From: Prosthecobacter sp.
GTDB lineage: Bacteria > Verrucomicrobiota > Verrucomicrobiia > Verrucomicrobiales > Verrucomicrobiaceae
Direction: 5' to 3'
Length of the DNA: 64,000 nt
Assembly (NCBI RefSeq): GCF_034366625.1
Contig: NZ_JAXMIH010000006.1
Span: forward strand, 434,001-498,000
Part shown: positions 3,728 through 38,432 of the stretch, one piece after another
Position numbering within the stretch: the stretch's first letter is position 1
How the letters are laid out: every line of letters begins with the position of its first letter
Notes under the pieces: generated by a model
The model's database searches: none
Told to the model about the DNA's origin: nothing
Seen by the model: only the letters and a program-made list of their open reading frames with translations
Program-made: the position numbers and the translations under genes

Positions 3728-6700
3728 TCAACCCTTCGTGATGCACTCGTCAAGATTGAGAATCGCGCTCGCCACGGCATACCAGGCAGCGAATTCGGCG
3801 GCGGGCAGATTTTTCGGGAGTTCGAGGCCGGTGACGAGTTCTTTCGTGGCCTGCGCGTCGGCTTTGGCGGATTCAAACTGGGCTTCCCAGAGAGATTTGA
3901 GCACGCCGAACTCTTTGGCTTGCGGCGTGCGTGCCAGGGCGATGCGGAAGGCATGTTGCAGCCGCGAATCGAGATCCTGGCTCGGCGATTCAGTGACGAT
4001 GCGTTTGGCGAAGGCCTTGGTGGCCTCGACATAAACGGGGTCGTTGAGCAACGTGAGCGCCTGGAGCGGTGTGTTGCTGCGCGAACGGCGCACCACACAG
4101 GCCATACGTGCGCTGGCATCGAAGTTCATGAAGCTCGGATAGGGCGAACCGCGTTTGAGCACAACGTAGAGGCCACGTCGGTATTGTTCGGCTCCGGGAC
4201 TGACGACGTAGTTGTAATCCTGTCCGCCCACTTTTTTCCAGAGTCCATCGGGCTGTGGCGGACGGATGGGAACACCGCCCTGCTTCAAATTGAGCAGACC
4301 AGCGATGGCGAGGGCGTTGTCGCGGATGGTTTCGGCATCGAGGCGAAAACGGGGGCCGTGCCAGAGCAAAGTGTTGGCGGGATCAAGCTGAGAGCCAAGG
4401 GCGTAGGGCATAGGGCCAGACGCTTCGCGCGATTCGGGACTGGATTGGAACTCTTCGCCCTTTGCTCTTTGCCCTGCACTTTGTCTGTAAGCCGCGCTCA
4501 TGACGATCTTCTTGAGCACATGCTTCATGTTCCAGCCGCTGTCGATGAACTCGACGGCGAGCCAGTCGAGAAGTTCGGGATGACTTGGGGCCGCGCCTTT
4601 GATGCCGAAGTCTTCGAGCGTCGCGACAATGCCCTGGCCGAAGAGCTCGGCCCACCAACGATTCACGGTGACGCGTGCGACGAGCGGATTGTCGCGGCTG
4701 GTGAGCCATTTCGCCAAGGTGATGCGATTGGACGGGCCTTGGGGCTTGGAATTGAAGATGGCGGGAACCGTTGGAGTGACGGGATCAGCCGGATCGGTGT
4801 AAACACCGCGTTTGAAGATGGCAGACATGCGCGGCTGCGGGAGTTCGCGCATGATTTCGGTGGTGGGGGCATCCAGCGCGGTGATCTGCTTTTGCAGCGC
4901 GGTTTTCTGGCGTTCGAATTTGGCGAGTTCGGGATCTTTGGATTTCGGCGTGGCGGCGGCTTTGCCTTTGCCACGTTTGGTGACGACGGGCGCGGGTTCT
5001 TCGACGGCAGGGAGGCATGCAACGACATCACCCGTGATGCTGGAGATGCGCAGGCAGCCCATGACGAGGCCGTTGCCGAAATTCTGCTCCATGCGAATGC
5101 TAAGCTTCGTTCCGGTGGGGATGGAAACGGGTTTGGCGAGTTCAAAGGCGGCCCAGTGAGGTTCACCGAAGCGCTGGCCGATGGCCCAGGCTTTTTTGCC
5201 GGTCTTGTCGATGAGAGTGGTGACAGCGTAGCCGTTTTGTGAGTAGTCGGCGTGGGCAGCACTGAATTTGAGGGGCTGCGTTTTGCCGTCGGGCGTGGTG
5301 AGAGCACAGTCGAAGGTGTGGAGGACGAAGTTGGGACGATTCGCGCCGCCGCGGCCGGGTCCATCGCCCGCGATGGAGGCATGGGTGAGGGCTTCGAGCA
5401 GCAATCCGCTGAGTTCGCCCCCCTTGAGCTCGGCTTCGAAGGTGTAGGTGTCTTTGTCGGGCACAGGGCCGGTTAGAAGGACGCTGCCGTCGCTTTGCAG
5501 TTCGGACTCGGCGTCGCTTTCGGTGATGAAGGCGGTGGGCTTGAGGGCTTGGACGGGTTTGGCGGAATCGATTTGGCCAGAACGTGAGGCGGCCGGGTTT
5601 CCGCGTTGGCCTCCGGAGCCGGTGAACTGCTGCTGACGTGCGGTGATCTGAGCGTCGAGCGTTTTCAATTGAGCGGCGAGCTGCTGGCGCTGCGTTTCAC
5701 GTCCAGGATCGCTAATTTTAAACGGGGTGCCGTTGAAGCGGATGGAGCCGGGTGTGCTGGGATTGGCGCGCTCGGCTTCTTTCTCGGTGTTGTTGTAGTA
5801 AGCGAGGAGGGAGTAGTAGTCGCGCTGGGTGATGGGGTCGTATTTGTGGTTGTGGCACTGGGCGCATTCGAGCGTGGTGCCGAGCCAGACAGCGCCGGTG
5901 GTGTTGACGCGGTCGATGACTTGATTGATGCGGCTTTCCTCGGGCTCGGTGCCAGCTTCGACATTCGTGGGCGTGCAGCGATGGAAACCGGTGGCGATGA
6001 TTTGATCGGGCGTGGCGTTGGGGAGCAGGTCGCCAGCGATTTGTTCGAGGGTGAACTGGTCGAAGGGCATGTTGGCATTCAGCGCGTTTACCACCCAGTC
6101 GCGCCAGGCCCAGACCTCGCGCAAATCATCGCGCTGAAAGCCGTGGGAGTCGGCGTAGCGGGCGAGATCGAGCCATGGGCGTGCCCAGCGGGGACCGAAT
6201 TGCGGTGAGTTTAAGAGGCGGTTGGTGAGGGATTCGTACGCGGTGAGGGGAGCGACGGTGGAAGTGCTCAGTGCCGAGTGCTCAGTGCTCAGTTTCGGAG
6301 TCTGCGGACTGAGCACTGAGGACTGAGGACTTTTTTCCTTCGCCACAGCAGCCACGAAATCGGCTACTTCTTGCGGAGTCGGAGGCAGGCCGGTCAAATC
6401 GAGCGACAGGCGGCGAATGAGAGTTTCGGGAGTGGCTTCGGGCGATGGGGCGAGTTTGTTGGCTTCGAGCTTGGCGAGGATGAAGTGGTCGAGGTCGGTT
6501 TTGGGCCAGGACTTGTTCTGGATGGCGGGAAGTGGCGGACGTGTGGGCGGGACGTAACTCCAGTGCTTGAGCGTTTCGATTTTGTCGGGCCATTGGGCAC
6601 CGGAGTTGATCCAATCGCGCAGATGATTGATCTCGGCGGCCGTGAGGCGGTCGCCGCGTTTGGGCATGGCTTCCTTGTCTTCCTTGGACAAGGCGACACG

Positions 6701-6895
6701 GCGAAGGAGGTCGGGACCGATTTCGAGATGCTTCGCAGAGGCGGTGTCGAGGCGGAGGTCGCCTTTTTGTTTTTCGCTGCCGTGGCATTCGAAGCAGGCA
6801 CGCTGGAGTACGGGGAAGACGTCTTTGGCGAAGTCCGTGGGCGCGGCGTGGACGGCCGTGGCGACGAGCAACGTGATGAATGCGAGACGGATCAT
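3728..6895 (-). CDS. PSCyt1-DUF1549-DUF1553 secreted cytochrome-like protein
   Basis: A 1055-aa exported protein of the planctomycete/verrucomicrobial cytochrome family. Residues 1-17 form a signal peptide. The PSCyt1 domain carries a CxxCH haem site (CFECH, 34-38). DUF1549 (about 130-370) has the family's second CxxCH in CAQCHNHKYDPI (344-348). An insert at about 450-640 looks like a carbohydrate-binding/concanavalin-like domain. DUF1553 occupies the C-terminal third and ends in LNLDECITKG as usual. Family members usually neighbour a DUF1501 gene and are linked to polysaccharide use; no DUF1501 gene is next to this one. Two low-complexity stretches (about 188-213 and 803-835) are encoded by palindromic repeat DNA and look like in-frame insertions. 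The exact reaction is unknown. Confidence 0.9.
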   Translation of the reverse strand: MIRLAFITLLVATAVHAAPTDFAKDVFPVLQRACFECHGSEKQKGDLRLDTASAKHLEIGPDLLRRVALSKEDKEAMPKRGDRLTAAEINHLRDWINSGAQWPDKIETLKHWSYVPPTRPPLPAIQNKSWPKTDLDHFILAKLEANKLAPSPEATPETLIRRLSLDLTGLPPTPQEVADFVAAVAKEKSPQSSVLSPQTPKLSTEHSALSTSTVAPLTAYESLTNRLLNSPQFGPRWARPWLDLARYADSHGFQRDDLREVWAWRDWVVNALNANMPFDQFTLEQIAGDLLPNATPDQIIATGFHRCTPTNVEAGTEPEESRINQVIDRVNTTGAVWLGTTLECAQCHNHKYDPITQRDYYSLLAYYNNTEKEAERANPSTPGSIRFNGTPFKISDPGRETQRQQLAAQLKTLDAQITARQQQFTGSGGQRGNPAASRSGQIDSAKPVQALKPTAFITESDAESELQSDGSVLLTGPVPDKDTYTFEAELKGGELSGLLLEALTHASIAGDGPGRGGANRPNFVLHTFDCALTTPDGKTQPLKFSAAHADYSQNGYAVTTLIDKTGKKAWAIGQRFGEPHWAAFELAKPVSIPTGTKLSIRMEQNFGNGLVMGCLRISSITGDVVACLPAVEEPAPVVTKRGKGKAAATPKSKDPELAKFERQKTALQKQITALDAPTTEIMRELPQPRMSAIFKRGVYTDPADPVTPTVPAIFNSKPQGPSNRITLAKWLTSRDNPLVARVTVNRWWAELFGQGIVATLEDFGIKGAAPSHPELLDWLAVEFIDSGWNMKHVLKKIVMSAAYRQSAGQRAKGEEFQSSPESREASGPMPYALGSQLDPANTLLWHGPRFRLDAETIRDNALAIAGLLNLKQGGVPIRPPQPDGLWKKVGGQDYNYVVSPGAEQYRRGLYVVLKRGSPYPSFMNFDASARMACVVRRSRSNTPLQALTLLNDPVYVEATKAFAKRIVTESPSQDLDSRLQHAFRIALARTPQAKEFGVLKSLWEAQFESAKADAQATKELVTGLELPKNLPAAEFAAWYAVASAILNLDECITKG
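4391..4480. repeat. AAGGGC-type repeat inside the cytochrome gene
   Basis: Clusters of the AGGGC(A/G)AAGGGC type lie head to head: AAGGGCGTAGGGCATAGGGC at 4397-4416 and, in the opposite sense, CGCCCTTTGCTCTTTGCCC at about 4457-4475. They encode roughly residues 805-835, a stretch with no counterpart expected in DUF1553 proteins. The same sequence family recurs at 37336-37472. Confidence 0.6.
6261..6334. repeat. CTCAGT-type inverted repeat inside the cytochrome gene
   Basis: GTGCTCAGTGCTCAG-like copies (6265-6293) face ACTGAGCACTGAGGACTGAG (6308-6327) around a short spacer. In the gene's frame this gives a Ser/Gln/Leu-rich insert (about residues 188-213, SVLSPQ...STEHSALST) between the DUF1549 start and its conserved LLNSPQFGPRWARPWLD segment. 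It is best explained as an in-frame repeat insertion in a surface loop. Confidence 0.65.
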
Positions 6896-20302: not shown

Positions 20303-21244
20303 ATGAGCACCACGACCTCTCCCGGTCCCACCCCCAGCGGCGGCGGCCTTCGCCATGGCTTGATGCTCGTCGTCGCGCTCGCCTTTCTCACCGCCATCGG
20401 CCTCGTGCTGCCGCATGGTGACAGCGGCGAAACATTCCGCGACGCGCTGCTGGCGCATGCGCTGTTTCGTCAGATCGTCATCGCCTTGTGGGCCATCGTG
20501 ATCGTCGAAGGCCTGCTCGGTCTCTTTGTCTCCAAGGATGACTGGCCTGCACGCCTCAAACGTCTCCTGGTCACGTCGCTGCTGCCACCGCTGCGCATGG
20601 TCATCGCCACCAGCAAGCCCCATGGCTGGCTCTGGCTGCCCGGCGCAGGCTGGAAGCCCGCAGGCGAGGAAACCTCCGAAAAACTCGAGCAAAAACTCGC
20701 CCTGCCGATGGTCATCCTCACGCTGCTCGTGCTGCCCGTGCTAGGGGCCGAACTCACCGGTGGCGAGACTTTGGAAAATCATCCGCGCATGGCGCTGGCC
20801 ACGCACCTGACCACCTGCGTGATCTGGGTGGGCTTCACGGTCGAGTTTCTGTGGATGGTGGCCGCCGCACCCAGCAAGCTGACGTATTGCCTCAAGAACT
20901 GGATCAATCTCGTCATCATCCTGCTGCCGCTCGTGGCCTTCCTGCGGATCCTGAGCGCCTTCCGCTTCGCACGCATGTTCCGTGCCGGCAAACTACTGCG
21001 CGCCTACCGCCTCCGCGGTCTGTGGACGCGCCTCTGGCGGCTCGCGCTTCTCTTCAATCTCCTCGAACGCCTGCAAAAACGCGATCCCGCGAAGTACTGC
21101 GCTGTACTGGAAAAGAAGATCGCCGATCTGGAGGAAGATCTCGCCGAACTGCGCACCAAGCTGGCGGAACAGCGCGGCAAGACCTTGGCCGATGTTTCAA
21201 CTGATCCCGAAGGGATCAAAGAAGGTAGCCAGGGGCAAGGCTGA
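20303..21244 (+). CDS. Voltage-sensor-like membrane protein with coiled coil and no pore domain
   Basis: A 313-aa protein. Hydrophobic helices lie at about 20-36, 56-77, 133-149, 168-189 and 201-215. The last four-helix block looks like S1-S4 of a bacterial voltage-gated channel: S2 with VIWVGFTVEFLWMVAA (E181), S3 NWINLVIILLPL and S4 with basic residues every third position (R215, R221, R224, R227, K230, R233, R236). In a Kv channel S5, a TxGYG filter and S6 should follow. Here the chain goes into basic helices (WTRLWRLALLFNLLERLQKR) and a coiled coil (about 266-292), and no filter motif is present. The S3 acidic residue is Asn202. ATG 20294 is an alternative start. Its job is unknown; a proton- or voltage-sensing role is inference. 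Confidence 0.72.
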   Translation: MSTTTSPGPTPSGGGLRHGLMLVVALAFLTAIGLVLPHGDSGETFRDALLAHALFRQIVIALWAIVIVEGLLGLFVSKDDWPARLKRLLVTSLLPPLRMVIATSKPHGWLWLPGAGWKPAGEETSEKLEQKLALPMVILTLLVLPVLGAELTGGETLENHPRMALATHLTTCVIWVGFTVEFLWMVAAAPSKLTYCLKNWINLVIILLPLVAFLRILSAFRFARMFRAGKLLRAYRLRGLWTRLWRLALLFNLLERLQKRDPAKYCAVLEKKIADLEEDLAELRTKLAEQRGKTLADVSTDPEGIKEGSQGQG

Positions 21245-21474
21245 GGCACGAAGCCGCCGCCCCTGGAATGGAACCACGTCTTCTTTCTCCGAAGGGCGCA
21301 TGCCGGAGGTATGCGAGAAGCTTTCAATGGCTGTATGTCATCACTGGGCTGGCGAGGGTTTCTCGCATACCTCCGGCATGCGCTCTTGATAGACGATGTT
21401 TGTTTCGATGTTCCAGGGGTGGCGCTCGCTGCGCGAGCTTACCCCGGGCTAATTTCTTTGATCCCTTCGGGATC
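21203..21474. repeat. Three nested perfect inverted repeats
   Basis: Outer arms of 21 bp (21203-21223 with 21454-21474; core GATCCCGAAGGGATC), middle arms CCCCTGGAA (21260-21268) with TTCCAGGGG (21411-21419), and inner arms of 24 bp (21296-21319 with 21360-21383; core GCATGCCGGAGGTATGCGAG). The left outer arm lies inside the 3' end of the voltage-sensor-like gene. The rest fills the 249-bp gap to the next convergent gene, where I see no coding sequence. Confidence 0.85.
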
Positions 21475-21493: not shown

Positions 21494-22210
21494 TCACTGC
21501 CCCAGGCTCAGATACTCACGCACCGTGTGATTCATCGCACGTCGTGCCGGAGGAAAGCAGTGCGCCACTTTCTCAAAGGTTTCCTCCATCGCGAACTCCT
21601 CCGCCAGGATGTGCTTCCGTGCCGCATCGAGATGGCTGACGACAACCTGCTCGTAGTAGTCCACATCCGGCGCTCCGCGACGCTCCGCCCGGCGGTGCAA
21701 AAAGTCGGGATACAGGCAGGTCAGCACGAGGAACTGGTTCGCGCACTGCACATGAAGGAAGAATTTGTGATGCCGGCTCGCGCTCTCGATCGCCTCCAGA
21801 TAATCCACGCTGTACAGGCTGTCGATGCTGTGATTGATGTCCTCCGGCCCCTTCGTCGGCGTGCAGCCGAAGTCCGCGCACACCACCGCCATGTAGTCCG
21901 CCACTGCGATCTCCGTGATGCCGAACTCCTTCAACGAATGCCGTACCACGATGAAGAAGAACAGTTCTGGAGACAGCATCGCCGCCTTCCGTGAGATCAG
22001 CGCCGCCTCGAACAGCTTGTCGTTGTCCAGGATGATCGGCACGGCATCCGGGTCATCCATCATCGCCTTGAATCCCTCCTTGCCGCGCTCGGTCAGGGCG
22101 AGTGTGTCGCGGATGAAATTCCAATCCGTCGGGGTAAAACGGAACCAGCAGCCAGGGCGAGGGAAGCGCGTCATGGAGATTAAGTGTGAACTGTCATCTA
22201 CCTTTAGCAT
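21494..22210 (-). CDS. Hypothetical cytoplasmic protein
   Basis: A 238-aa protein of unknown function with no signal peptide or membrane helix. The N-terminal WFRFTPTDWNFIRDTLALTERGK looks like a compact helical start, and the rest alternates helices with His/Phe-rich segments (ASRHHKFFLHVQCANQFLVL). The C-terminal HILAEEFAMEETFEKVAHCFPPARR suggests all-alpha structure. The start at 22210 (MLKVDD) or 22174 (MTRFPRPG) cannot be decided, because neither has a clear Shine-Dalgarno sequence. It is convergent with the voltage-sensor-like gene and divergent from rph. I know no named family for it. Confidence 0.7.
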   Translation of the reverse strand: MLKVDDSSHLISMTRFPRPGCWFRFTPTDWNFIRDTLALTERGKEGFKAMMDDPDAVPIILDNDKLFEAALISRKAAMLSPELFFFIVVRHSLKEFGITEIAVADYMAVVCADFGCTPTKGPEDINHSIDSLYSVDYLEAIESASRHHKFFLHVQCANQFLVLTCLYPDFLHRRAERRGAPDVDYYEQVVVSHLDAARKHILAEEFAMEETFEKVAHCFPPARRAMNHTVREYLSLGQ

Positions 22211-23126: not shown

Positions 23127-23132
23127 GGAAGA

Positions 23133-23224
23133 GTTGACGGTAGTTTACAGTTGTTGACCGTGGTTGACGATGGTTTGGCCAAACCACCGTCAACAATCGT
23201 AAACAACAGCCAACCACCGTAAAC
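23133..23224. repeat. 92-bp imperfect palindrome built of GTTGAC/GTTTAC repeats
   Basis: Left arm 23133-23178 and right arm 23179-23224 meet at the exact centre TTTGGCCAAA. About 36 of 46 positions match. Each arm holds several copies of GTT(G/T)AC(G/C)GT. It fills the gap between the rph stop and the next ATG at 23227, so the message probably forms a long hairpin before the deacetylase start. Confidence 0.8.
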
Positions 23225-23226
23225 TC

Positions 23227-24267: not shown

Positions 24268-25272
<1,005 letters not shown>

Positions 25273-25286
25273 CCGCGCTCATCGCA

Positions 25287-25832
25287 AAATCCTCCTCCGC
25301 CTCCTACTCTTACTCCTCCTCCCTTTCCGCACATCCAAACCCACGCCGACTGCACGCCATGTCCACCGCACGCAAGTTCGACCACGAAAAGCTAGAGGTT
25401 TACCAACTCGAACTGCAGTTCATCGCCTGGCTCACCAATCTCTTTGCAGAAATCCAGTCCTCCAAAACACCCCGCCTCTCCGAAGTCATCGATCAACTCG
25501 ACCGCGCCAGCCTCTCTGCCCTCCTGAACACGGCTGAAGGTAACGGCCGCCGGGCCACTCAACAGCGCGTCCGCTTCTTCGACGACGCTCGCGGCTCAGC
25601 CACCGAATGCGCCGCATGCCTTGATGCGATCGTCGCCAAAATGGCGTGCAAGCAAGAGCGTGTTCTCGATGGCAAGGACATGCTGCTCAGTGTTGTCTCG
25701 ATCTTGAGTGCGCTGATCGCTCGTTTTGAAGGAGCTTCAACCAAGGTGCCTGTGCAAGCTGGCTCTTCGGTGCGAAGGCCGGGTATCCGCCGCTCGTTCA
25801 GGGAGGAGGAGACGGAGTAGGAGGAAGAGGCG
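25287..25832. mobile_element. Four-helix-bundle element with polypyrimidine/polypurine inverted ends
   Basis: The left end (25287-25324; motif CTCCTACTCTTACTCCTCCT) and right end (25799-25832; GGGAGGAGGAGACGGAGTAG) are imperfect inverted repeats enclosing the four-helix-bundle ORF. The left end is nearly identical to the reverse complement of the right end of a non-coding element at 29272-29393. There is no transposase inside. The element sits between moxR and DUF58, which are normally adjacent, so it is best read as an insertion. Confidence 0.65.
25359..25820 (+). CDS. Four-helix-bundle protein (S23/IVP family)
   Basis: A 153-aa helical protein of the family first seen as intervening-sequence protein in 23S rRNA genes; the Avd accessory protein of diversity-generating retroelements shares the fold. 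Family marks: KLEVYQLELQFIAWLTNLF in helix 1, IDQLDRASLSALLNTAEGNGR in helix 2 (the QL.RAS.S...N.AEG pattern) and FFDDARGSATECAACLDAI in helix 3. The last 25 residues are basic and partly encoded by the right terminal repeat. Function is unknown in free-standing members. It is carried in a repeat-bounded element and its stop codon lies inside the right-hand repeat. Confidence 0.88.
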   Translation: MSTARKFDHEKLEVYQLELQFIAWLTNLFAEIQSSKTPRLSEVIDQLDRASLSALLNTAEGNGRRATQQRVRFFDDARGSATECAACLDAIVAKMACKQERVLDGKDMLLSVVSILSALIARFEGASTKVPVQAGSSVRRPGIRRSFREEETE

Positions 25833-25850
25833 GGCTTTCATTTGACGAAC

Positions 25851-26753
25851 ATGGCTGAATCATCTCGATCATTCCTCGACCCAGCGGTCCTTTCGCGCCT
25901 CATCGCGCTGCCGCTGAACGCCCGCCAAGCCATGCTCGGCAACGTCTCCGGCAAGCATCGTAGCCCCGTGCGCGGTTCCTCGCTCGAATTCGCGCAATAC
26001 CGCAAATACGTCCCCGGCGATGACACACGACGCCTCGACTGGCGCACCTGGGGGCGCAGCGACCGCTTTTACATCAAGGAATTCGAGGCCGACACGAACC
26101 TGCGACTCTGCCTGCTCATCGACACCAGTGGCAGCATGAACTTCGGCCCTGCTGGTGCCACACGCTTCGACTACGCCAAAAAACTCGCCGGCACGCTCGC
26201 CTACATCGCCGCGCAGCAGGGCGACGCCGTCGGTCTGCATTCTCTCGCCGAAAAATCGGTCGAAATTCCCGCCAAGCGCGGTGCATCGCATCTCGGCGTC
26301 GTGCTCGATCAAATGGCCGGCCTCCAGCCCGTCGGCGATACCACGCTGCTCACCGCGCTGCACGACGCCGCCGAAAAAATCCGCCAACGCGCTCTCGTCG
26401 TCATCTTCAGCGACCTGTTCGTGCCGCCCGCCGAACTGAAGTCCGCCATTCAGCACCTGCGCTTCCGCAAGCACGACGTCACCGTGTTTCATCTGCTCGA
26501 TCAAAAGGAACTCGACTTCGATTTCGACCGCCCCGCCCGTTTCATCGACATGGAAGGCGGCGAAGCCGTCCTCGCCGACCCCAGCCTCATCGCCCGCAAC
26601 TACCGCGAGGCCGTGAAGCAATACATGATGGAAATCGACGACCTCGTCCGCACCACCGCCATCGACTACCACCGCGTGAAGCTGCACGAGAAATACGACG
26701 ACGTGCTCGTGAAGTTCTTGCTGGCACGGATTCAGAAGAAAGGAGGCCGGTGA
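25851..26753 (+). CDS. DUF58-domain protein with vWA-like fold
   Basis: A 300-aa cytoplasmic partner of MoxR. The DUF58 signature is clear: SSLEFAQYRKYVPGDDTRRLDWRTWGRS is split by the usual R..R-D-W core, followed by a MIDAS-like site in LIDTSGSMNFG. The C-terminal part (VIFSDLFVPPAELKSAIQHL...HLLDQKELDFDF) completes the vWA fold. ATG 25851 is preferred over an in-frame TTG at 25842. In the family, MoxR is thought to remodel or load vWA partners; the pair is expected to be co-transcribed despite the element between them. Confidence 0.93.
   Translation: MAESSRSFLDPAVLSRLIALPLNARQAMLGNVSGKHRSPVRGSSLEFAQYRKYVPGDDTRRLDWRTWGRSDRFYIKEFEADTNLRLCLLIDTSGSMNFGPAGATRFDYAKKLAGTLAYIAAQQGDAVGLHSLAEKSVEIPAKRGASHLGVVLDQMAGLQPVGDTTLLTALHDAAEKIRQRALVVIFSDLFVPPAELKSAIQHLRFRKHDVTVFHLLDQKELDFDFDRPARFIDMEGGEAVLADPSLIARNYREAVKQYMMEIDDLVRTTAIDYHRVKLHEKYDDVLVKFLLARIQKKGGR
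26739..26746 (+). promoter_or_regulatory. Strong ribosome binding site before the 26753 gene
   Basis: AAAGGAGG lies 6 nt before ATG 26753, which overlaps the DUF58 stop in TGATG. This decides the start and implies independent strong initiation within the operon. Confidence 0.75.
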
Positions 26754-27292
26754 TGCATTCAAAAATCGGAATTCTTCTTCTCACATGGGTGAGTCTAGCA
26801 TGGTGTGAAGACGCAAAATTCACCCCTCCGCCAGCGGGGATCAATGGCTGGCCGAACAAGCCTTATGACAAAGTCGTTGGCTATCAATTCGCCAATCCCG
26901 ATCACATCTCCTTTATCGAGGATGGCGTACTGGCGCTCGACAAGTTGAAGGAGCTGAAGCGCAAAGAGACTGTTTTGAATGCCGATCAAACAGCGGCCCT
27001 TCTCAAAGCGACCTTTGAGGAAGAGAAAACGCCAGGTGGCGCACTTTGCTACGACCCGCATCACATCATCGTCTTCTACTTCGACGACAAGCCGGTGGGA
27101 GCCATTGAAATCTGCTTCCATTGCACGGGTGCAAGGTGCTGGCCGCAGAACAAGGCGGTCTGGTGGCACACCAATTTCAACGAAATTGGAAAGCTGACCA
27201 TATCGTTGGGCCTTGGGGTTCGCGAGCCAGATCCGGGCAACGACTCGCCAAAGTCAGGACAGCAACGCTTTCCCACTTCGCCAAAACGATAA
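26753..27292 (+). CDS. Exported hypothetical protein in the MoxR operon
   Basis: A 179-aa protein with a signal peptide (MHSKIGILLLTWVSLAWC; cleavage near WCEDA is plausible). The mature part has a mixed alpha/beta character with a CFHCTGARCWP segment holding three cysteines and ends in a basic, disordered tail. No family recognised. It overlaps the DUF58 stop by one base and its stop codon abuts the next ATG, so it is a true operon member. Its lysine- and asparagine-richer composition differs from its neighbours, which hints at later arrival in the operon. Confidence 0.75.
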   Translation: MHSKIGILLLTWVSLAWCEDAKFTPPPAGINGWPNKPYDKVVGYQFANPDHISFIEDGVLALDKLKELKRKETVLNADQTAALLKATFEEEKTPGGALCYDPHHIIVFYFDDKPVGAIEICFHCTGARCWPQNKAVWWHTNFNEIGKLTISLGLGVREPDPGNDSPKSGQQRFPTSPKR

Positions 27293-29272
27293 ATGACCTT
27301 CCTCGTTCCAGCGTTGCTCCTCGCCCTGCCGCTCGCGGCGCTGCCGGTGATCATTCATTTGATCCACCTGTATCGGCGGCGGCAGGTGAAGTGGGCGGCG
27401 ATGATGTTTCTGCGCATGGCGCAGCGCATGAACAAGGGGCTGTCGCGGCTGCGGCAGATTCTCATTCTGGCGTTTCGCGTGCTGGCAGTGGCGGCGATCT
27501 TGTTTGTCATCACGCGGCCGATGGCGGGCGGCTTGCTCGGGCTCACCGGTGGCGTGCCGGACACGGTGATCGTGCTGCTCGACCGTTCGGCGAGCATGGA
27601 GCAGCAAAACCTCGCCACCGGCACCAGCAAGCGTGCGGCAGGCATCGCGAAGCTCTCGCAGGCCTTGCGCGACACCGTTGGCACGCGGTCGAAGCTCGTG
27701 CTGATCGAGAATGCGCATCTTCAGCCGCAGTTGCTCGAAAAACCGGAATCACTCGTTGATCTGCCGCTCACCGGCCCCACGGACACCACGGCGGATGTGC
27801 CTGCGCTGCTGCAAGGCGCGCTCGATTACATCACCACGAATCAAACCGGACGCACCGACGTGTGGGTGCTCAGCGATCTGCGCCAAAGCGACTGGGATGC
27901 GGCCAGCGGACGCTGGCAGGCGCTGCGCGGTGCTTTCACCAGCCTCAAAGGCCTGCGCTTTCATCTGCTGACCTACGCGCAGCCCGTGTCGCAAAATCTC
28001 GCCGTCTCCGTCGAGCGTGCCGTGCGCCGCGAAACCGCCGACAAAGCCGAACTGCTGCTCGATCTGCGCATCACACGCGACGCGGCCACCGCAACGCCCA
28101 CCGAGCTGCCGCTGCGATTTGTCATCAATGATGTGAGCACCACGATGAAGGTCGAGATGAAGGACTCGCAGCTCGTGCTGCAAGGCCACGCCATTCCCAT
28201 CGACAAAACGACGAAACGCGGCTCTGGCCGCGTGGAACTGCCCGCCGATGCTTCGCCCTCCGACAATGTCTTCCATTTTGTCTTCGATGAACCGGCCGTG
28301 CTGCGTTCCGTGATCATCACCGAGGACGAAACTGAGGCCGGACCACTGCAAGCCGCACTCGAAGCCGCCGCCGATCCCACGCGCAAGTATGCTGCCACCG
28401 TGCTGCCCGTCTCCCGCGCCGCCGAAATCGCGTGGGACGACACCGCGCTTATCATCTGGCACGCGGCATTGCCCAAGGCGGACGATTTGATCACCCAACA
28501 ACTCAGGAATCATCTCAACTCAGGACGCAGCATCCTGTTCCTACCCACGGAAGCACCTAACAACGAAACCTTCGGCGGCCTGCACTGGGGTGCGTGGAGC
28601 GGCGACAGCAAACCCGCCTCCGTCGAGTGGTGGCGCAACGACTCCGGCCTGCTCGCCAACACGCGCAGCGGCACCTCACTGCCCGTTGGCGAGCTCGAAG
28701 TGACTCGGCGTTGCGAAATCCTCGGCGAAGGCACACCGCTGGCACGACTCGCCGAAAACAAGCCGCTGCTCATGCGTGCGGACATTCCCGGTGATGGCAA
28801 CGCCTGGTTCCTCGGCACGCTGCCCGGTTCCGGAAGTTCCAGCCTCGCGCGTGATGGCGTAGTGATGTTCGCCATGCTGCATCGTGCCTTGAATGAAGGT
28901 GCCAGCACGCTCGGCAAAGCGCAGCAACGCGAAGCCGTCGCCACCGACACGCTGAATGACTGGAAACGAGCCGGAGAAGCGATGCTGAGTTCCGAACAAT
29001 CGCTGCGTGCTGGCATTCTCACCAAAGACGACAAACTCATCGCCCTGAACCGCCCGCTGCGCGAAGACCGGTCCGAAACGCTCGGCAAGACTGCTCTCGC
29101 CGAACTCTTTGCCGGACTCGATCATCACATCATTGAGGACCAGGTCGAAAACGAAACCAGTCTCGCCAGCGAAATCTGGAGAACGTTCTTGTTCTTTATG
29201 GCGCTCGCACTGCTCGGTGAGGCGCTGCTTTGCATGCCGGGGAAACGTGAAGTTCGACCCAGCGCTGCCTGA
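27293..29272 (+). CDS. BatA-type membrane protein with vWA domain
   Basis: A 659-aa inner-membrane protein. The N-terminal BatA domain begins MTFLVPALLLALPLAALPVI, followed by HLIHLYRRRQVKW and MFLRMAQ, then a second helix (LILAFRVLAVAAILFVITRPM). A vWA domain follows with a MIDAS motif in VIVLLDRSASMEQQN. The large middle part is extracytoplasmic and a final helix (TFLFFMALALLGEALL) returns to the membrane. This is the standard partner of MoxR/DUF58 in Bacteroidetes and Verrucomicrobia. A 120-bp non-coding repeat element separates it from the next gene. Confidence 0.9.
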   Translation: MTFLVPALLLALPLAALPVIIHLIHLYRRRQVKWAAMMFLRMAQRMNKGLSRLRQILILAFRVLAVAAILFVITRPMAGGLLGLTGGVPDTVIVLLDRSASMEQQNLATGTSKRAAGIAKLSQALRDTVGTRSKLVLIENAHLQPQLLEKPESLVDLPLTGPTDTTADVPALLQGALDYITTNQTGRTDVWVLSDLRQSDWDAASGRWQALRGAFTSLKGLRFHLLTYAQPVSQNLAVSVERAVRRETADKAELLLDLRITRDAATATPTELPLRFVINDVSTTMKVEMKDSQLVLQGHAIPIDKTTKRGSGRVELPADASPSDNVFHFVFDEPAVLRSVIITEDETEAGPLQAALEAAADPTRKYAATVLPVSRAAEIAWDDTALIIWHAALPKADDLITQQLRNHLNSGRSILFLPTEAPNNETFGGLHWGAWSGDSKPASVEWWRNDSGLLANTRSGTSLPVGELEVTRRCEILGEGTPLARLAENKPLLMRADIPGDGNAWFLGTLPGSGSSSLARDGVVMFAMLHRALNEGASTLGKAQQREAVATDTLNDWKRAGEAMLSSEQSLRAGILTKDDKLIALNRPLREDRSETLGKTALAELFAGLDHHIIEDQVENETSLASEIWRTFLFFMALALLGEALLCMPGKREVRPSAA

Positions 29273-29393
29273 ATCCTTCTCTTCCTCCTACTCCTCCTCT
29301 TACTCCCTGACCGTTATGCCCAGCGATTTCGAAAGCTATAGACCCGTCCCTTCAGGGAGGAGGAGTAAGAGTAGGAGGCGGAGTAGGATTTAA
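29272..29393. mobile_element. Non-coding 120-bp miniature relative of the four-helix-bundle element
   Basis: Left arm 29272-29310 (TCCTCCTACTCCTCCTCTTA) and right arm 29352-29393 (AGGAGGAGTAAGAGTAGGAG) are inverted repeats around a 41-bp core without an ORF. The reverse complement of the right arm matches the left end of the 25287-25832 element over about 36 bp with one clear mismatch. It lies between two operon genes and overlaps the last codon of the first. Consistent with a MITE-like deletion derivative. Confidence 0.75.
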
Positions 29394-29395
29394 AT

Positions 29396-31588
29396 ATGCA
29401 GCCCACCACGTCCCAACTCGTCTTCAATCCCACGCCCGTCGCGTTCGCTGTCGGCGTGGCGTTTGTGGTCGCGATTGCGGGGCTGGCGTTCATGGCGTGG
29501 CGTCGCAGTGGGTATCGCAAGCTCATGGGGTGGCTGGAGTTGCTGCGCGTGATCATCGCCCTCGGCATCGCGATCACACTACTGCAGCCGGAGTGGCTGG
29601 AGACGTTCAAACCGGAGACGAAGCCGGTGTTGGCGGTGCTGCATGATGTTTCAGGCAGCATGAGCACCAAGGATGTCACACGCGGCACACAGGTGATCTC
29701 GCGTGAAGAAACGGCGAAGCCCTTGATCGAGCCGAAGCTATGGGAGCCGCTCAAGCAGCGCATGGATGTCGTCATCGAGCCGTTTTCGTCGTCACAAACA
29801 CCAGCGGCGGAAGGTACGGACATTCATGCAGCACTCGCCAGCGTGCTCGAACAGCAGCCGAACCTCAAAGCGGTCGTGTTGATCAGCGATGGCGATTGGA
29901 ACACCGGCAGCGCACCCGCTCAGGCCGCCACACGGCTGCGCATGCGCGAGGTGCCCGTGTTTGCGGTGCCGACGGGAGCCGAGACGCGGCTGCCGGATGT
30001 GGAATTGACGAGTTTTGACGTGCCAACCTTCGCGGTGGCGGGCAAACCGCTGCGCATTCCGTTCGTCATCGACAGCTCGCTGCCGCGTGATGAAGTTGTG
30101 ATGCTGGAAATGAAAGCGTCGAGCGGTGAGATCATCACCAAAGAGGTCACGCTGCCTGCCATGGGTCGCTTACAGGATGCCATCGCGTGGAAGCCGGACA
30201 AACCGGGCGAGGTGAAGCTCACGCTGACGATTCCAAAGACACCAAACGAGCGCTATCCCGAAAACAACACGCAGGAAGCGCCGCTCTCGATCCGCAAGGA
30301 GCAGCTCCGTGTACTGGTGATCGAAACCTTCCCGCGCTGGGAGTATCGCTACCTGCGCAATGCGTTGGAGCGTGATCCCGGCGTCGAAGTGAACTGCCTG
30401 CTGCTGCATCCCGGCCTCGGCAAAGCTGGGGCAGGGCGAGGTTATCTCAAAGCCTTCCCCAAAGACGAAGAACTCACGAAATTCGATGTCGTCTTCCTCG
30501 GCGATGTGGGTTTGGAGAAAAGCCAGCTCACCGCAGCGCACTGCACCGCGCTGCAAAAGCTCGTGCGCGATCAAGCGGGTGGCCTCGTCTTCATGCCGGG
30601 CTTCCATGGTTTCCAAGCGACCTTGCAGGACACACTTCTGGCCGACCTGCTGCCCGTCGTGTGGGACGCTGCCCAGCCACGCGGCTGGGGATCGTCATCA
30701 CCGGGCAAGTTTGCGCTCACGGAAGCCGGAACGCGCAGTCTTTTGACGAAGCTCGAAGACAGTGATGAAGCAAGCGCCCGCGTGTGGGGCAATCTGCCGG
30801 GCTTTCAATGGTATGCACCCGCCCTGCGCGCCAAAGCAGGCACCGAAGTGCTCGCCACACATGGCAGCGAGTCGAATCAGTATGGCCGCGTGCCCTTGAT
30901 CGTAACGAAGACCTATGGCGCGGGCAAAATCCTCTTCATGGGCACGGACGGTGCGTGGCGCTGGCGCAAGGGCGTGGAGGACAAATACCACTACCGTTTC
31001 TGGGGCCAGGTGGTGCGCTGGATGGCCTACCAGCGCAACATGAGCAGCGGTGACAGCATGCGCCTGTTTTACTCGCCGGATCGTCCACGCACTGGCGATG
31101 TGCTGACGCTGAATGCGAACGTGATGAGTTTAACCGGTGAACCGTTGCGCGACGGAGCCGTGATCGCCCAAATCGCCGCACCGAGCGGCAAAGTATCGAG
31201 CGTGCGCCTCATCCCGGCTGGCGAAGAAGCCTGGGGTCTGTTCAACGGCACCTTCACACCGACTGAACCGGGCGACCATCGGGTGCAGCTCACCTGCGCG
31301 GAGGCAGGATCGTCGTTGGAGGCAAAAATTTCGATTCAGGGCGTCAGCCGTGAAAAACGCGGCCAGCCCGCGCGGCTGGAGGTGCTGCGCGAGATTGCGC
31401 AGTTCACCAAGGGCCAGATGCTGGATGCCAGCGATCCTGTGGCTGTCGTCGCGGCGATCGCGGGAATGCCTGAGCCTGCGATTCAGGAGCGCCGCCTGCC
31501 GTTGTGGGCGCATCCGGCCTGGGCGGGGCTGCTGGTCACGCTGATGGGCCTATTTTGGGTCGGAAGAAAGGCCGCCGGGACGTTCTAA
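29396..31588 (+). CDS. vWA / glutamine-amidotransferase-like membrane protein
   Basis: A 730-aa protein. Two N-terminal helices (VAFAVGVAFVVAIAGLAFMA; LLRVIIALGIAITLL) precede a vWA-like domain with MIDAS DVSGSMS in VLAVLHDVSGSMSTKD. A segment starting LRVLVIETFPRWEYRYLRNA resembles the class I glutamine-amidotransferase-like domain found in such proteins, with no catalytic cysteine evident. A beta-rich region (about 560-680) and one C-terminal helix (AGLLVTLMGLFWVGRKA) follow. Likely exposes its central domains to the periplasm and acts with the BatA-type protein. The exact task is unknown. Confidence 0.85.
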   Translation: MQPTTSQLVFNPTPVAFAVGVAFVVAIAGLAFMAWRRSGYRKLMGWLELLRVIIALGIAITLLQPEWLETFKPETKPVLAVLHDVSGSMSTKDVTRGTQVISREETAKPLIEPKLWEPLKQRMDVVIEPFSSSQTPAAEGTDIHAALASVLEQQPNLKAVVLISDGDWNTGSAPAQAATRLRMREVPVFAVPTGAETRLPDVELTSFDVPTFAVAGKPLRIPFVIDSSLPRDEVVMLEMKASSGEIITKEVTLPAMGRLQDAIAWKPDKPGEVKLTLTIPKTPNERYPENNTQEAPLSIRKEQLRVLVIETFPRWEYRYLRNALERDPGVEVNCLLLHPGLGKAGAGRGYLKAFPKDEELTKFDVVFLGDVGLEKSQLTAAHCTALQKLVRDQAGGLVFMPGFHGFQATLQDTLLADLLPVVWDAAQPRGWGSSSPGKFALTEAGTRSLLTKLEDSDEASARVWGNLPGFQWYAPALRAKAGTEVLATHGSESNQYGRVPLIVTKTYGAGKILFMGTDGAWRWRKGVEDKYHYRFWGQVVRWMAYQRNMSSGDSMRLFYSPDRPRTGDVLTLNANVMSLTGEPLRDGAVIAQIAAPSGKVSSVRLIPAGEEAWGLFNGTFTPTEPGDHRVQLTCAEAGSSLEAKISIQGVSREKRGQPARLEVLREIAQFTKGQMLDASDPVAVVAAIAGMPEPAIQERRLPLWAHPAWAGLLVTLMGLFWVGRKAAGTF

Positions 31589-34978: not shown

Positions 34979-37329
34979 CACGAGTTCTGCTGACGGTTCT
35001 GATGCTGGGTGTTGTCACCGCGAAGGCCCAGACGACCTATTACTCGCGCACGGAGTTGAAGAAGCCGCTTTCCGAGGCGGTGGAGAAGACGCTGGCTGAG
35101 CTGGTGGAGCGTTGTGTGCCGGAGAAGCACAAGCAAATGACGGCCCACATGGAGGAAGTGATCCAGGCCGTCGATGCGGTGGCGAAGCTCACGACGGAGG
35201 AGAAGAAGGCGTTGCAGGAGGAGTCAAAGAAGGCGGTGGATGCGACGGTGAAGGCGTGGCAGCCGCTGGCGGTGGTGATGATGCGCACTTATTTGTCACG
35301 CACGTCGGAGTCGGCGGCGATCCGGCACATCGGCATGTGGAAGCCGGATGTGGCGGGACCGAATGAACCGGTGGAAAACTGGACACCGCCGCAGGAGACC
35401 GCCAACTGGCTCGCCACACTGCGCCAGACACTCGGCGAAGAACGATTCAAAACGTGGCAGGCTGCGGATGCGAAGGTGAAGGAGCAAACGGCCAAGGAGA
35501 TCGCCGATCATCTCACGCGTTGGGGTGGTGAATCACGGGGGCCGATGAACGAGGACTTGCAGGCAAAGATCGGGCTGATGAAGACCAAATTGAATCTCCC
35601 CGAGGATCGCGTGAAAGCCTTGAACGATGCTGCGAACGCCCTGCTGAACCGACTGGTGGACACCGAACGCAAACGCGCGACGGACATGTTGCGCACCTTG
35701 CCGCCCACCGCGCGACAGAGCATCACGAAGCGCAGTTATTACTACATCCGCTTCGACCGGCCGCGTGGCGAGGCCTGGGACAAGCTGTGGGAAGATACCG
35801 CCGGGAAGGTGCTGCCTGCGGAATTGATCGCCCAGTGGAAGAAGACTGAGCAGGAGGAACGCGGCAAGGAGGGCGCCGAGCTGGCCGACATGATCAAACC
35901 CTCCGAACAGCAGGCGGAGCAGCAGATGGAACTGGCCCTGAGCGCGGAGATCGACAGCATCGTGGTGGCGCTGGATTTGAACAAGGAGCGGCAGCAGGCG
36001 CTGTCGAAGCTGTCGAAGGAGGCGATTCAAGAGTCGCTGAAGCTGGCGCGGAAGGGCTGGTTGCAGCAGGCAAAGAATTATTCGGCCACGGAGCGCAAGC
36101 GCATCCGTGGCAACGTTTATTTCGGCATCAACGAGGAGCAGCAGGCCATGGTGCTGCCGGTTTGGAAGGATGGCTTGAAGAAGATCCTCTCCGAGGAGGA
36201 GCGCACCCGCATGGCCGCCGAAAACAAGCAGCGCGAGGAGCGCACGAGCTCGGCCATCGCACGCGCCTGTCTGGCAGAGATGGACAAGACGCTGGTGCTG
36301 AATCAGACCCAGCGCACGAAACTGGAACCGCTGCTGCTGGAGCTGATGCAGCCGCTGCTGGAGCAGCGCCGCCAGCAGTACTGGAGCTACAACGCCAGCC
36401 AGCTCTTTCAAAACGCCGGCAAGGCCAAGGAGGAAACGGTGCGCGCGATCCTCGATGAGGTGCAGTGGCAACACTGGAAGGAGCTGATCGCGTCGAACAA
36501 CAGCTCATCACGCACCGCCACGCCGGACGTGAACGCCACCGGACCCGCCGTGATAGACATGGAGATCGCGATCTCGGCGCACCTGTACAAGATGTTTGTA
36601 ACGGAACGCAAGAAGGTGCTGGCGGTGATGATTCCGCAGGTTGAGGACGCCAAGCGTGTGCTCTCGCTGCCCGAACCGGCGGTCACACGGCTCACCACAG
36701 CGGCCAAGGGGACGGTGGAGAAGCATTTGGAACCCTGGCGGCAAAACACCGAGCGCTACGTGCGGCAGAGCGTGCAGAGCGCCACGCCGAAGAACATCTT
36801 GCAGGCGCTCGCAGGCACGGAACGCGTGAGCTTCAGCCGCAACGAGGGCGGACCACAGGATGCGGAGCTGTGGAAGACGGAGCTGAGCGCGACACTGAAC
36901 GAAGCTCAGCAAAAGCAGTTGCAGCAGGTGGTGGAAGCGCGGCGTGATTACCGCCTGAAGGCCATGGCGGCGATGAGCGTCTCGGAACTGGACCGCCGCC
37001 GCCGGCTCACGGCAGACCAATGCGCAAAGATCGAAACAGCCGTCCACAAGGTGCTGGTGGAGTACCTGCCGGACATCGAGCGCTACATGTCCTTCCAGTG
37101 GTTCCTGCAATACTACTACGCGCTGGTGCCGGTGGCCGGCGTGGCGGAGAAGGATTTGCAGGCGATCCTGACGCCGGAGCAGTGGAAGCTGTGCAAGGAA
37201 CGCGATCTGCCCGACGCGATGCAGTACTGGGAGGGCATCAAAAACAATCACGAGAACCGCATGAAGCAGGGCGCCAACGGCAATGCCAACCGGATCATCA
37301 TCAACGGAGGGCTCATCCTCGACCCATGA
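34975..37329 (+). CDS. Periplasmic helical protein with repeated LTxxQ-like units
   Basis: A 784-aa protein with signal peptide MTRVLLTVLMLGVVTAKAQ. The mature part is almost entirely alpha-helical and charged. Units of the type L(D/N)LxxxRxxxLxxLxxxAxxxxxK recur, for example LNLPEDRVKALNDAANALLN, LDLNKERQQALSKLSKEAIQ, LVLNQTQRTKLEPLLLELMQ and LSLPEPAVTRLTTAAKGTVE. The pattern recalls CpxP/Spy LTxxQ chaperones, repeated. No catalytic motif. It overlaps both neighbours by 4 bp. A chaperone or scaffold role is inference. Confidence 0.78.
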   Translation: MTRVLLTVLMLGVVTAKAQTTYYSRTELKKPLSEAVEKTLAELVERCVPEKHKQMTAHMEEVIQAVDAVAKLTTEEKKALQEESKKAVDATVKAWQPLAVVMMRTYLSRTSESAAIRHIGMWKPDVAGPNEPVENWTPPQETANWLATLRQTLGEERFKTWQAADAKVKEQTAKEIADHLTRWGGESRGPMNEDLQAKIGLMKTKLNLPEDRVKALNDAANALLNRLVDTERKRATDMLRTLPPTARQSITKRSYYYIRFDRPRGEAWDKLWEDTAGKVLPAELIAQWKKTEQEERGKEGAELADMIKPSEQQAEQQMELALSAEIDSIVVALDLNKERQQALSKLSKEAIQESLKLARKGWLQQAKNYSATERKRIRGNVYFGINEEQQAMVLPVWKDGLKKILSEEERTRMAAENKQREERTSSAIARACLAEMDKTLVLNQTQRTKLEPLLLELMQPLLEQRRQQYWSYNASQLFQNAGKAKEETVRAILDEVQWQHWKELIASNNSSSRTATPDVNATGPAVIDMEIAISAHLYKMFVTERKKVLAVMIPQVEDAKRVLSLPEPAVTRLTTAAKGTVEKHLEPWRQNTERYVRQSVQSATPKNILQALAGTERVSFSRNEGGPQDAELWKTELSATLNEAQQKQLQQVVEARRDYRLKAMAAMSVSELDRRRRLTADQCAKIETAVHKVLVEYLPDIERYMSFQWFLQYYYALVPVAGVAEKDLQAILTPEQWKLCKERDLPDAMQYWEGIKNNHENRMKQGANGNANRIIINGGLILDP

Positions 37330-38432
37330 ACATGCGCGAAGAGCGAAGGGCGAAGGGCAAAGGGTCCAGGCAAATGCAAAGCGAGCCTGGAGCCTGGCAC
37401 ATGCGGCGAAGCGTCCTCATAACGATCTTTGGCTTGTGCGTTGCTCTTTGCCCTTCGCCCTTTGCCCTTCACGCCCAAGATCCCGCGCTGCGTTTCGGCG
37501 GAGCGATTCCGCAGGAAGTTGAAACCGTGTACGAGCGCGGCCTTGCCTGGCTGGCATCGAAGCAGAGCGAGCAGGGCAACTGGCAGGGCGGCAACGATGG
37601 CGCCGGTGTGGATGGCATCTGCCTCATGGCCTTTCTGGCGAGCGGTGAGGATCCGAACTTCGGCCGTTACGCGGCGAACATCCGTCGTGCGCTGCGTGCC
37701 ATCATCCGCAGCCAGGATGCGAGCACCGGTTACCTGCCCAACAGCATGTACCATCACGGTTTTGCCATGCTCGCACTCTCCGAGGCCTACGGAGCGGTGG
37801 ATGAATCGCTGCTGTGGGAAGGCGGCAAGCCGGTCCGCACGATCGGGCAGGCGCTCGATCTCGCGGTCCGCTGTGCCGGCACCTCGCAGAAGGCGAACCG
37901 CTGGGGTGGCTGGCGTTACATGCCGAACTCGACGGACGCGGACACCTCGGTGACGGGCGCGGTGCTGATGGGGTTGCTGGCCGCGCGCAACGCGGGCATG
38001 GAGGTCTCTGATGAAGTCATCAATGCCGCGCTGGAGTACATGCGCCGCAGCACCGGCAAGGATGGCAGCGTGGCCTACGCCGGCGGCTTTGGCGGCTTCG
38101 GCGAGTCGATGAACCGCAGCGCCATCGCCACGCTCGTCTCCGCCGTGTCGAAGCACAAGGATTCCGAGGAGTTCAAGGCCACGCTGAAGCACATCACCGA
38201 GCGGCTGGAGCACACCGAGGGCAACTACAAGGAGTACTTCCGCTACTACATGGCGCAGGCCTTGTTCCAGGGCGACTACGCCTCGTGGCAGAAGTGGAAC
38301 GCCGCCACCGCCCGCGTGCTCAGTGAGAGCCAGGCGCCGGATGGCAGCTTCAACAACGAGGCCTACGCCACCGGCATGTCCCTGCTGGCCATGGCGCTGA
38401 ACTACCGCTTCCTGCCGATCTATGAACGCTAA
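37326..38432 (+). CDS. Prenyltransferase/squalene-oxidase-repeat secreted protein
   Basis: A protein of up to 368 aa with the alpha/alpha-toroid repeats of the terpenoid-cyclase/prenyltransferase superfamily: GLAWLASKQSEQGNWQGG, DGICLMAFLASG, AIIRSQDASTGYLPN, GFAMLALSEAYG, WGGWRYMPNSTDADTSVTGA and SQAPDGSFNNEAYATGMSLL. There is no DxDD cyclase motif, so it is probably a binding protein. ATG 37326 overlaps the upstream stop; ATG 37401 opens a clean signal peptide (MRRSVLITIFGLCVALCPSP). The DNA between 37336 and 37472 is a palindromic repeat, so the start region looks remodelled. Similar proteins close many MoxR clusters in this phylum. Confidence 0.85.
   Translation: MNMREERRAKGKGSRQMQSEPGAWHMRRSVLITIFGLCVALCPSPFALHAQDPALRFGGAIPQEVETVYERGLAWLASKQSEQGNWQGGNDGAGVDGICLMAFLASGEDPNFGRYAANIRRALRAIIRSQDASTGYLPNSMYHHGFAMLALSEAYGAVDESLLWEGGKPVRTIGQALDLAVRCAGTSQKANRWGGWRYMPNSTDADTSVTGAVLMGLLAARNAGMEVSDEVINAALEYMRRSTGKDGSVAYAGGFGGFGESMNRSAIATLVSAVSKHKDSEEFKATLKHITERLEHTEGNYKEYFRYYMAQALFQGDYASWQKWNAATARVLSESQAPDGSFNNEAYATGMSLLAMALNYRFLPIYER
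37336..37472. repeat. AAGGGC-type inverted repeat over the start and signal peptide of the 37326 gene
   Basis: GAGCGAAGGGCGAAGGGCAA (left arm, 37336-37366) faces TTTGCCCTTCGCCCTTTGCC (right arm, 37441-37472). The right arm encodes the C-terminal half of the signal peptide (LCPSPFAL). The same repeat family is found inside the cytochrome gene at 4391-4480. Confidence 0.75.

Follow-up and report, generated by a model that had tools for sequence, protein, structure and literature searches.

The closest described counterparts of the elements reported here are the intervening sequences (IVSs) of 23S rRNA genes. According to the accessible part of PMC4990558, the IVS of Coxiella holds an S23 open reading frame (ORF), a 28-bp terminal stem and, before the ORF, heptameric tandem repeats whose number varies between strains; it is excised by RNase III, IVSs were proposed in 1993 to be mobile, the S23 protein of Xanthomonas is a homopentameric ring, and S23 proteins have no known function. 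Here we describe two elements in a 64,000-nucleotide stretch of Prosthecobacter sp. (contig NZ_JAXMIH010000006.1, positions 434,001 to 498,000; hereafter the window): an S23 element, E1, between the MoxR and DUF58 genes of one operon, and an ORF-less hairpin, E2, further along it. Like an IVS, E1 consists of an S23 ORF framed by complementary ends whose pairing closes a stem; however, an IVS lies inside an rRNA gene, whereas E1 lies between two protein genes, and the present elements also occur without an ORF or with a GxxExxY gene.

Other repeats share part of this architecture. Miniature inverted-repeat transposable elements (MITEs) are short non-coding copies whose inverted ends are common to a coding relative, as in E2 and eight more ORF-less paired places of the same genome. 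Here, however, the coding relative (E1) has no transposase and no general target duplication was detected, and we rejected a classical MITE of a transposon on these grounds. Repetitive extragenic palindromes (REPs), with their associated tyrosine transposases (RAYTs), likewise form dispersed intergenic hairpins, also flanking a small gene, but the gene between the present arms is S23 or GxxExxY rather than Y1, and degenerate words in arrays make up the ends. The short tandemly repeated repetitive (STRR) sequences of cyanobacteria, intergenic hairpins with no known function in the accessible part of PMC2670836, and the GGGAATC repeats of Xanthomonas consist of degenerate heptamers repeated in tandem between genes. 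The accessible part of PMC4692102 gives 70 inverted pairs of GGGAATC arrays in X. campestris and names a Nostoc counterpart, GGGGA(C/T)T, few pairs of which are inverted and none of which is found on that strain's plasmids, which argues against a simple identification of the latter with S23 arms there. Neither source, as far as accessible, draws a link to S23; the main text of a paper on TAACTGA repeats (PMC4679880) contains neither 'S23' nor 'four helix'. The Avd protein of diversity-generating retroelements (DGRs) is a homologous four-helix bundle, and a resemblance of PF05635 to Avd is stated in the accessible part of PMC10053308; in contrast to a DGR, the genome of the window has no match to the reverse transcriptase model RVT_1, in a search that did not extend to template or variable repeats. 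The 23S rRNA IVP is also listed among CRISPR-associated domains in the accessible part of PMC10910872. Among the open-access papers listed, we found no account of free-standing S23 or GxxExxY genes as elements ending in word arrays, and no function for GxxExxY in the accessible parts of the papers on it.

We consider it rather likely that E1 is an intergenic relative of the IVSs, that E2 belongs to the same arm family as a form without an ORF, that the S23 protein reads the word of its own element, and that an enzyme supplied in trans moves the elements. Directly supported are the architecture, its recurrence in many phyla, operon junctions that are empty or otherwise filled in relatives, a single clean insertion flanked by a duplicated 5-bp target, and the tracking of words with S23 sequence.

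Two inserts with related ends in one operon

The window (G000:C6:434001-498000) belongs to a 6.6-Mb genome, probably of the Verrucomicrobiaceae, the name borne by L190 and L193, which are the nearest named relatives of S23 genes of the genus. Its MoxR-DUF58-BatA operon holds both inserts:

25286-25838: E1, S23 element, with inverted arms at 25286-25324 and 25800-25838 (39 nt, 79% complementary)
25286-25324, + strand: left arm of E1, polypyrimidine words of about CTCYTM, inverted-repeat pair with the right arm
25359-25820, + strand: S23/IVP four-helix-bundle ORF, 153 aa, matching PF05635 and TIGR02436
25800-25838, + strand: right arm of E1, inverted-repeat pair, covering the final 21 nt of the S23 ORF
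29272-29390, + strand: E2, ORF-less hairpin, 119 nt, with arms at 29272-29310 and 29352-29390 (39 nt, 82% complementary)

A first-pass annotation had placed an S23/IVP-type gene with inverted ends at 25287-25832 and a 120-bp piece with almost the same ends at 29272; both descriptions hold, with the limits and the length of E2 corrected as listed. The ORF of E1 matches the Pfam family 23S_rRNA_IVP (PF05635) at E 4.1e-14 and also TIGR02436, 'four helix bundle protein', and its closest solved chain is 2gsc (E 3.4e-4). The two arms of E1 agree at 28/34 bases; the left arm of E1 is identical to the reverse complement of the right arm of E2 at 37/38 bases, and the left arm of E2 to the reverse complement of the right arm of E1 at 28/32. 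The first base of E2 is also the final one of the BatA stop codon, and 5 nt separate the end of E2 from the next ATG. As RNA, E2 folds at -53.0 kcal/mol (z -4.99, with 0/200 shuffles as good), and the minimum-energy fold of E1 pairs both arms at an energy that is weakly unusual (z -1.91, 3/100 shuffles equally good). The window has no Rfam match at gathering score, and a known RNA family was rejected on this ground. For the S23 gene of E1, the ratio of nonsynonymous to synonymous substitution (dN/dS, NG86) is 0.025 against L085, 0.063 against L081 and 0.22 against L079, with dS saturated (above 1) in all three comparisons; it was not computable against L077. An origin of E2 by internal deletion of an S23 element was considered and set aside, as the comparison of its loop with S23 5' ends gave weak support (p 0.028 for the window, 0.118 for G040).

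Copies of the arms in the genome and the genus

That the ends recur elsewhere in the genome and its relatives is borne out. An arm 19-mer with up to two mismatches has 12 matches at 11 places in the own genome, nine of them besides E1 and E2, against 2 matches for the backwards pattern. Ten of the 11 places are paired, namely E1 with its ORF and nine without one (E2 and the eight others), and at 6/10 of these, longest-ORF calls put a stop codon no more than 20 nt upstream. A 20-mer that fits two arm types, with at most one mismatch, has 19 matches in the own genome and 0 backwards; such controls rule out a chance polypurine likeness of the arms. Across the genus, the arm types CTCCTACTCTTACTCCTCC and CTCCTACTCGAACTCGTCC have matches in 26/47 genomes, up to 43 in G027, the backwards control for the two types giving 0-2 matches in any genome and strand (47 genomes). 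Many copies of the second arm type look like solo arms; the pairing script left some arm loci unpaired, and solo arms were therefore called by eye.

S23 genes occur in 47/48 genomes of the genus and GxxExxY genes in 45/47. Of the four PF05635 genes in the own genome, a single one is of the window type. Arm matches are found in 11/11 genomes with a window-type S23 (E < 1e-48) versus 15/36 without it (Fisher p 4.6e-4, uncorrected for phylogeny).

The architecture in other phyla and with a second gene family

Arms were scored by aligning the 300 nt before each gene with the reverse-complemented 300 nt that follow it. Among S23 loci of many phyla (78 of 80 used), 53/78 score above the 99% level and 61/78 above the 95% level of intervals from the same loci (n 1440, maximum 36; real median 37). 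Loci above the 99% level come from Verrucomicrobiota with Lentisphaerae, Planctomycetota, Bacteroidota, Acidobacteriota, Chloroflexi, Elusimicrobia, deltaproteobacteria, Hydrogenedentes, Sumerlaeota and other Proteobacteria; the two scored loci of the candidate phyla radiation (CPR; L249, L256) fall below it, and some S23 loci have no arm signal (e.g. L200, L231, L237). On cyanobacterial plasmids, 14/15 S23 loci exceed the 99% level (15 of 25 records used, with L281 and L283 among them representing one insertion). In the class of G058, the genome of L206 (Methyloversatilis), S23 is present in 77/369 genomes, and 20/30 loci scored from these 77 genomes have arms above the 99% level; a single GGGAATC-like match occurs at 3/30. 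Within the genus, 24/33 S23 loci lie above the 99% level and 31/33 above the 95% level of 2000 random intervals, a control drawn from the window and from operon regions that contain such elements (maximum 74), and many of these loci are orthologous sites and not independent. E1 itself scored 25, among the 9/33 below the 99% level, with just 10 nt of ORF overlap allowed; over the whole region its arms score 38.

GxxExxY genes (PDDEXK_3, PF13366; PD-(D/E)XK-like), which are unrelated to S23, show the same arrangement: 22/30 loci of the genus have arms above the 99% level, and outside the genus the genes occur in 29/38 genomes, with arms above that level at 18/26 loci (26 of 30 used). Among arms that score above 28 and reach 20 nt, those of S23 loci are periodic in 48/51 cases (phyla), 24/25 (genus) and 11/12 (cyanobacteria), with 7, 8 and 10 nt commonest, and those of GxxExxY loci in 11/22, with 9 nt commonest; on cyanobacterial plasmids 10/12 S23 arms have period 7, and the window arms have, by eye, a period of about 6. 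Where both neighbours could be called, S23 is co-directional with both at 19/26 loci of the genus. The presence of S23 and GxxExxY genes between inverted short-word ends (arrays of 7-10-nt words) in many groups suggests a widespread and largely overlooked kind of mobile element.

The GxxExxY matches at L115, L118 and L108 lie in open frames of roughly 271-272 aa that stand between inverted arms, and in several genomes one such frame holds two adjacent matches (e.g. G010:C420, G000:C6:523829-524566).

Orthologous junctions

Comparison of the window with 20 orthologous operon regions (21 in all) shows that the ORF is missing from some of the orthologous MoxR operons. At the MoxR-DUF58 junction, resolved in 17/21 (the other four are contig ends or lack a MoxR match), an S23 gene is present in 9, an S23 remnant with deleted ORF in 1 and an unrelated ORF-less hairpin with words GCCGAAAAA ... 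TTTCGGC in 2, and the junction is empty in 5. The BatA junction, resolved in 15, holds an E2-type hairpin in 2 (the window and G040, where the ortholog is L076), a second arm type in 2, a GxxExxY gene flanked by GCCGAAAAAG-like arms in 4 (each of them also recovered in the genus-wide GxxExxY survey), a partial hairpin in 1, short spacers in 3 and almost no gap in 3. Remnants, hairpins and arms at both junctions were called by eye from printed sequence. At a junction of a paralogous operon (20 regions), the own genome, G019, G039 and G041 have paired hairpins and others single arms, and the gap is zero or below in five regions.

The window-type S23 occupies the MoxR-DUF58 junction in nine operons and also in G010, there with an internal stop. 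Since the junction is the same in all of these, the window copy is old and has passed down vertically; a recent jump of it was therefore rejected. At this site, the two arms of L077 are near-identical and unlike the arms of its orthologs, and L081 combines an arm of one type with an arm of the other. Two S23 elements of G012 are 93% identical over 738 nt, with higher identity by eye inside the element; their flanks are paralogous (87-91%), and their likeness may therefore stem from gene conversion. At one junction shared by G041 (L341) and G028 (L347), with flanks 83-85% identical, both genomes have S23 genes whose surroundings do not align between the two.

Insertion of S23 elements

Filled and empty sites were compared in 12 pairs at five sites. 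The clearest case is a 423-bp S23 element on plasmid C of Trichormus, bounded by a 5-bp target duplication (GTAAT on both sides): the sequence is uninterrupted in plasmids of Aulosira and Microchaete, with flanks 96-98% identical, and the insert is missing from six records at about 97% identity, two of which were aligned. A Scytonema plasmid carries an S23 element of 409 bp at the same site. The comparison of L283 with L288 revealed a remnant. Two Nostoc plasmids, pC052_D and pNsp_c, share flanks of 89-99% identity and are filled reciprocally at two neighbouring junctions by S23 elements that differ in their words; by eye, one site fits insertion without duplication and the other repeats ATG. 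Another plasmid of the same Nostoc strain has, by eye, an ORF-less hairpin of AGGAGTC words, the words of that strain's S23 element, and a solo arm; a third plasmid of the strain has a solo arm, and two plasmids of another strain have none there. Further insertion sites lie between cas6 and cas4, between cas10 and cmr3 and, antisense, in a ribonucleotide-reductase pair; S23 genes are also present in conjugation-gene clusters. Judged by these comparisons, insertion of S23 elements is real; a standard duplication is not seen, the flanks of 59 elements having no more in common than mispaired ones.

S23 proteins and their words

Across 53 elements, word similarity tracks S23 similarity (Mantel rho 0.184, p 0.001, close relatives included), and for cross-phylum pairs alone rho is 0.103 (p 0.0145), with a word similarity of 0.176 in the top 5% of protein pairs versus 0.057. 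The correlation fits an S23 protein that reads its own word, or a protein and a word that travel together. The solved S23 relatives 2gsc and 2rld have five chains each.

RVT_1 has no match in the own genome (96.67% complete) or in 22 others of the 47 genomes, among them the arm-rich G027, G041, G035 and G015, so that an obligatory RVT_1 partner is ruled out. Y1_Tnp genes are present in 46/47 genomes of the genus, with 11 such genes in the own genome; G027 has one weak match (E 6.3e-5), and G033 lacks Y1, S23 and GxxExxY. No transposase with E1-type ends was seen, no genome-wide search for one having been made.

In G410, a 1.5-Mb genome, we observed ten near-identical full copies and a fragment of a distant S23-like gene (L380-L390), which we take to be DGR Avd genes, the repeated coding sequence beside them being presumably DGR-like. 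The single copy scored has no arms. A recent expansion of S23 elements was rejected here, as the copies have near-identical surroundings with repeated coding sequence.

Proposed mechanism and alternative explanations

We propose a model in which an E1-type element would be a unit of about 0.4-0.6 kb with S23 as its sole gene and with ends made of inverted arrays of degenerate words that pair into a closing stem, and E2, the other hairpins and the solo arms would be ORF-less members of its arm family. The S23 protein, with the five chains of its solved relatives, may bind its own word array as single- or double-stranded DNA or as RNA, and the bound protein could bring the ends of the element together; S23 would then be an agent of movement. 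An enzyme supplied in trans would move or copy elements with such ends, including those without an ORF, and in elements of this build GxxExxY genes may be another passenger or agent. Elements would persist between genes, often beside stop codons, because both neighbours remain intact there.

Several of our results weigh against this model. The window S23 type keeps one site in about ten species; the sole gene of E1 is S23, and the element has no transposase. Fifteen genomes carry arms yet lack a window-type S23 (uncorrected for phylogeny). Under the stricter control with mispaired flanks, in which related loci share words, just 13/33 S23 loci of the genus exceed the 95% level. Mean arm likeness within an element (0.59) is modestly above that between left arms of different elements (0.55), with right arms of different elements lower, at 0.43. 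At 4/5 filled sites no clean junction was found, the junctions being altered at L282, L276 and L275 and the spacers unrelated at L270, and no target duplication is detectable over 59 elements, the sharing of flanks not exceeding that of mispaired flanks. Arm mismatches on the S23-sense strand comprise 100 A:C versus 70 G:U (p 0.026). The picture of a mobile element with MITE-like derivatives drawn in the first-pass annotation is thus partly supported and, in a wider form, largely right: it fits the recurring ends and the orthologous junctions that lack the ORF. A recent jump is not supported for this S23 copy, which is old and the single one of its type in the genome; the target duplications it had proposed to look for were not detectable beyond the one clean cyanobacterial case. 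Its scope was too narrow, as the same arrangement is found around genes of a second family, GxxExxY, and in many phyla.

The near-universal presence of Y1_Tnp in the genus, together with G033, which has neither Y1 nor S23 nor GxxExxY, would suit an explanation in which the arms are REP-like repeats moved by resident RAYT-type Y1 transposases and S23 and GxxExxY are accidental passengers. We regard this as unlikely: the genome richest in arms, G027 with 43, has one weak Y1 match, words track S23 sequence, and the Trichormus insertion is clean and has a 5-bp duplication, whereas Y1 enzymes are not known to produce such duplications. It is similarly improbable, in our judgement, that the elements act at the RNA level as rRNA IVSs would, with a stem cut by RNase III, movement by reverse transcription and S23 in the role of an Avd-like partner. 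In favour, S23 proteins are those of IVSs, E2 is a strong RNA hairpin, a terminal stem, heptameric repeats and excision by RNase III are features of known IVSs (accessible part of PMC4990558), and the resemblance to Avd (accessible part of PMC10053308) extends to a match of the L283 protein to the Avd model PF22296, at an E of 6.6e-6 that is below the model's cut-off. The RVT_1-free genomes, among them the arm-rich ones, and some insertions antisense to their neighbours speak against it. So do the arm mismatches: the G:U count was intended to back an RNA stem and came out otherwise, and with the excess lying in A:C rather than G:U, selection on such a stem on the sense strand is not favoured. 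A third explanation would make the arms slippage-born repeats or host regulatory hairpins homogenised by template switching, and S23 an ordinary, vertically inherited host gene. The orthologous S23 genes at one site in about ten species, their low dN/dS and the many solo arms seen by eye agree with it; however, arms surround genes of two unrelated families in many phyla, at scores exceeding those of same-locus controls, and reciprocal as well as clean insertions are found in DNA that is otherwise 89-99% identical, the clean Trichormus insertion in particular weakening this explanation, which we find very doubtful.

Returning to the model of word-reading S23 proteins and an enzyme in trans, a broader extension seems possible, though we would hesitate to call it probable: S23 and GxxExxY proteins would be word readers of a widespread class of elements without transposase and with inverted arrays of 7-10-nt words as ends, the unexplained heptanucleotide repeats of cyanobacteria, xanthomonads and others their solo ends or ORF-less forms, and rRNA IVSs the subset that landed in 23S rRNA. 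It would predict that XCC0516 of Xanthomonas (PDB 2gsc) lies between GGGAATC arrays. If true, the S23 and GxxExxY families would gain a testable job, 23S rRNA IVSs would be linked to protein operons, and the heptanucleotide repeats of cyanobacteria and Xanthomonas would gain a possible origin; S23 genes inside CRISPR-cas, ribonucleotide-reductase and conjugation clusters would probably be passengers rather than parts.

Neighbouring genes and other hairpins of the window

The genes around E1 and E2, and a third short-word palindrome, are as follows:

23131-23226, no strand assigned: palindrome of 96 nt with GTTGACGGT / GTTTACAG words
24268-25272, + strand: MoxR-type AAA ATPase gene, 5' neighbour of E1 (PF07726, E 1.2e-62)
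25869-26753, + strand: DUF58 gene, 3' neighbour of E1 (PF01882, E 1.9e-44)
27293-29272, + strand: BatA-like gene, 5' neighbour of E2 (PF07584, E 5.4e-12)
29396-31588, + strand: 730-aa gene, 3' neighbour of E2, without Pfam or NCBIfam match

An ORF of 180 aa at 26750-27292, flanked by the DUF58 and BatA genes, is likewise unmatched in Pfam and NCBIfam and has a relative in just 3/20 orthologous regions (L076, L085, L087). The palindrome at 23131-23226 fills the gap between two genes, with a stop codon (23126) 4 nt before it and an ATG at 23227 right after it. Words like GTTGACGGT/GTTTACAG flank a 125-aa S23 type in other species, a type that, by eye, is not among the four S23 genes of the own genome. 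A hairpin of AGTGCTC-like heptamers at 6262-6332 lies in frame within a 1055-aa ORF (3728-6895, - strand). At 37334-37474, a hairpin of GAAGGGCAAAG words begins 4 nt past a stop codon at 37329, and its right arm is in the frame of the ORF at 37020-38432, in a stretch resembling a signal peptide. A nested inverted structure of 272 nt at 21203-21474, with a second arm pair inside it, folds as RNA at -184.6 kcal/mol and lies 19 nt from the ORF at 21494.

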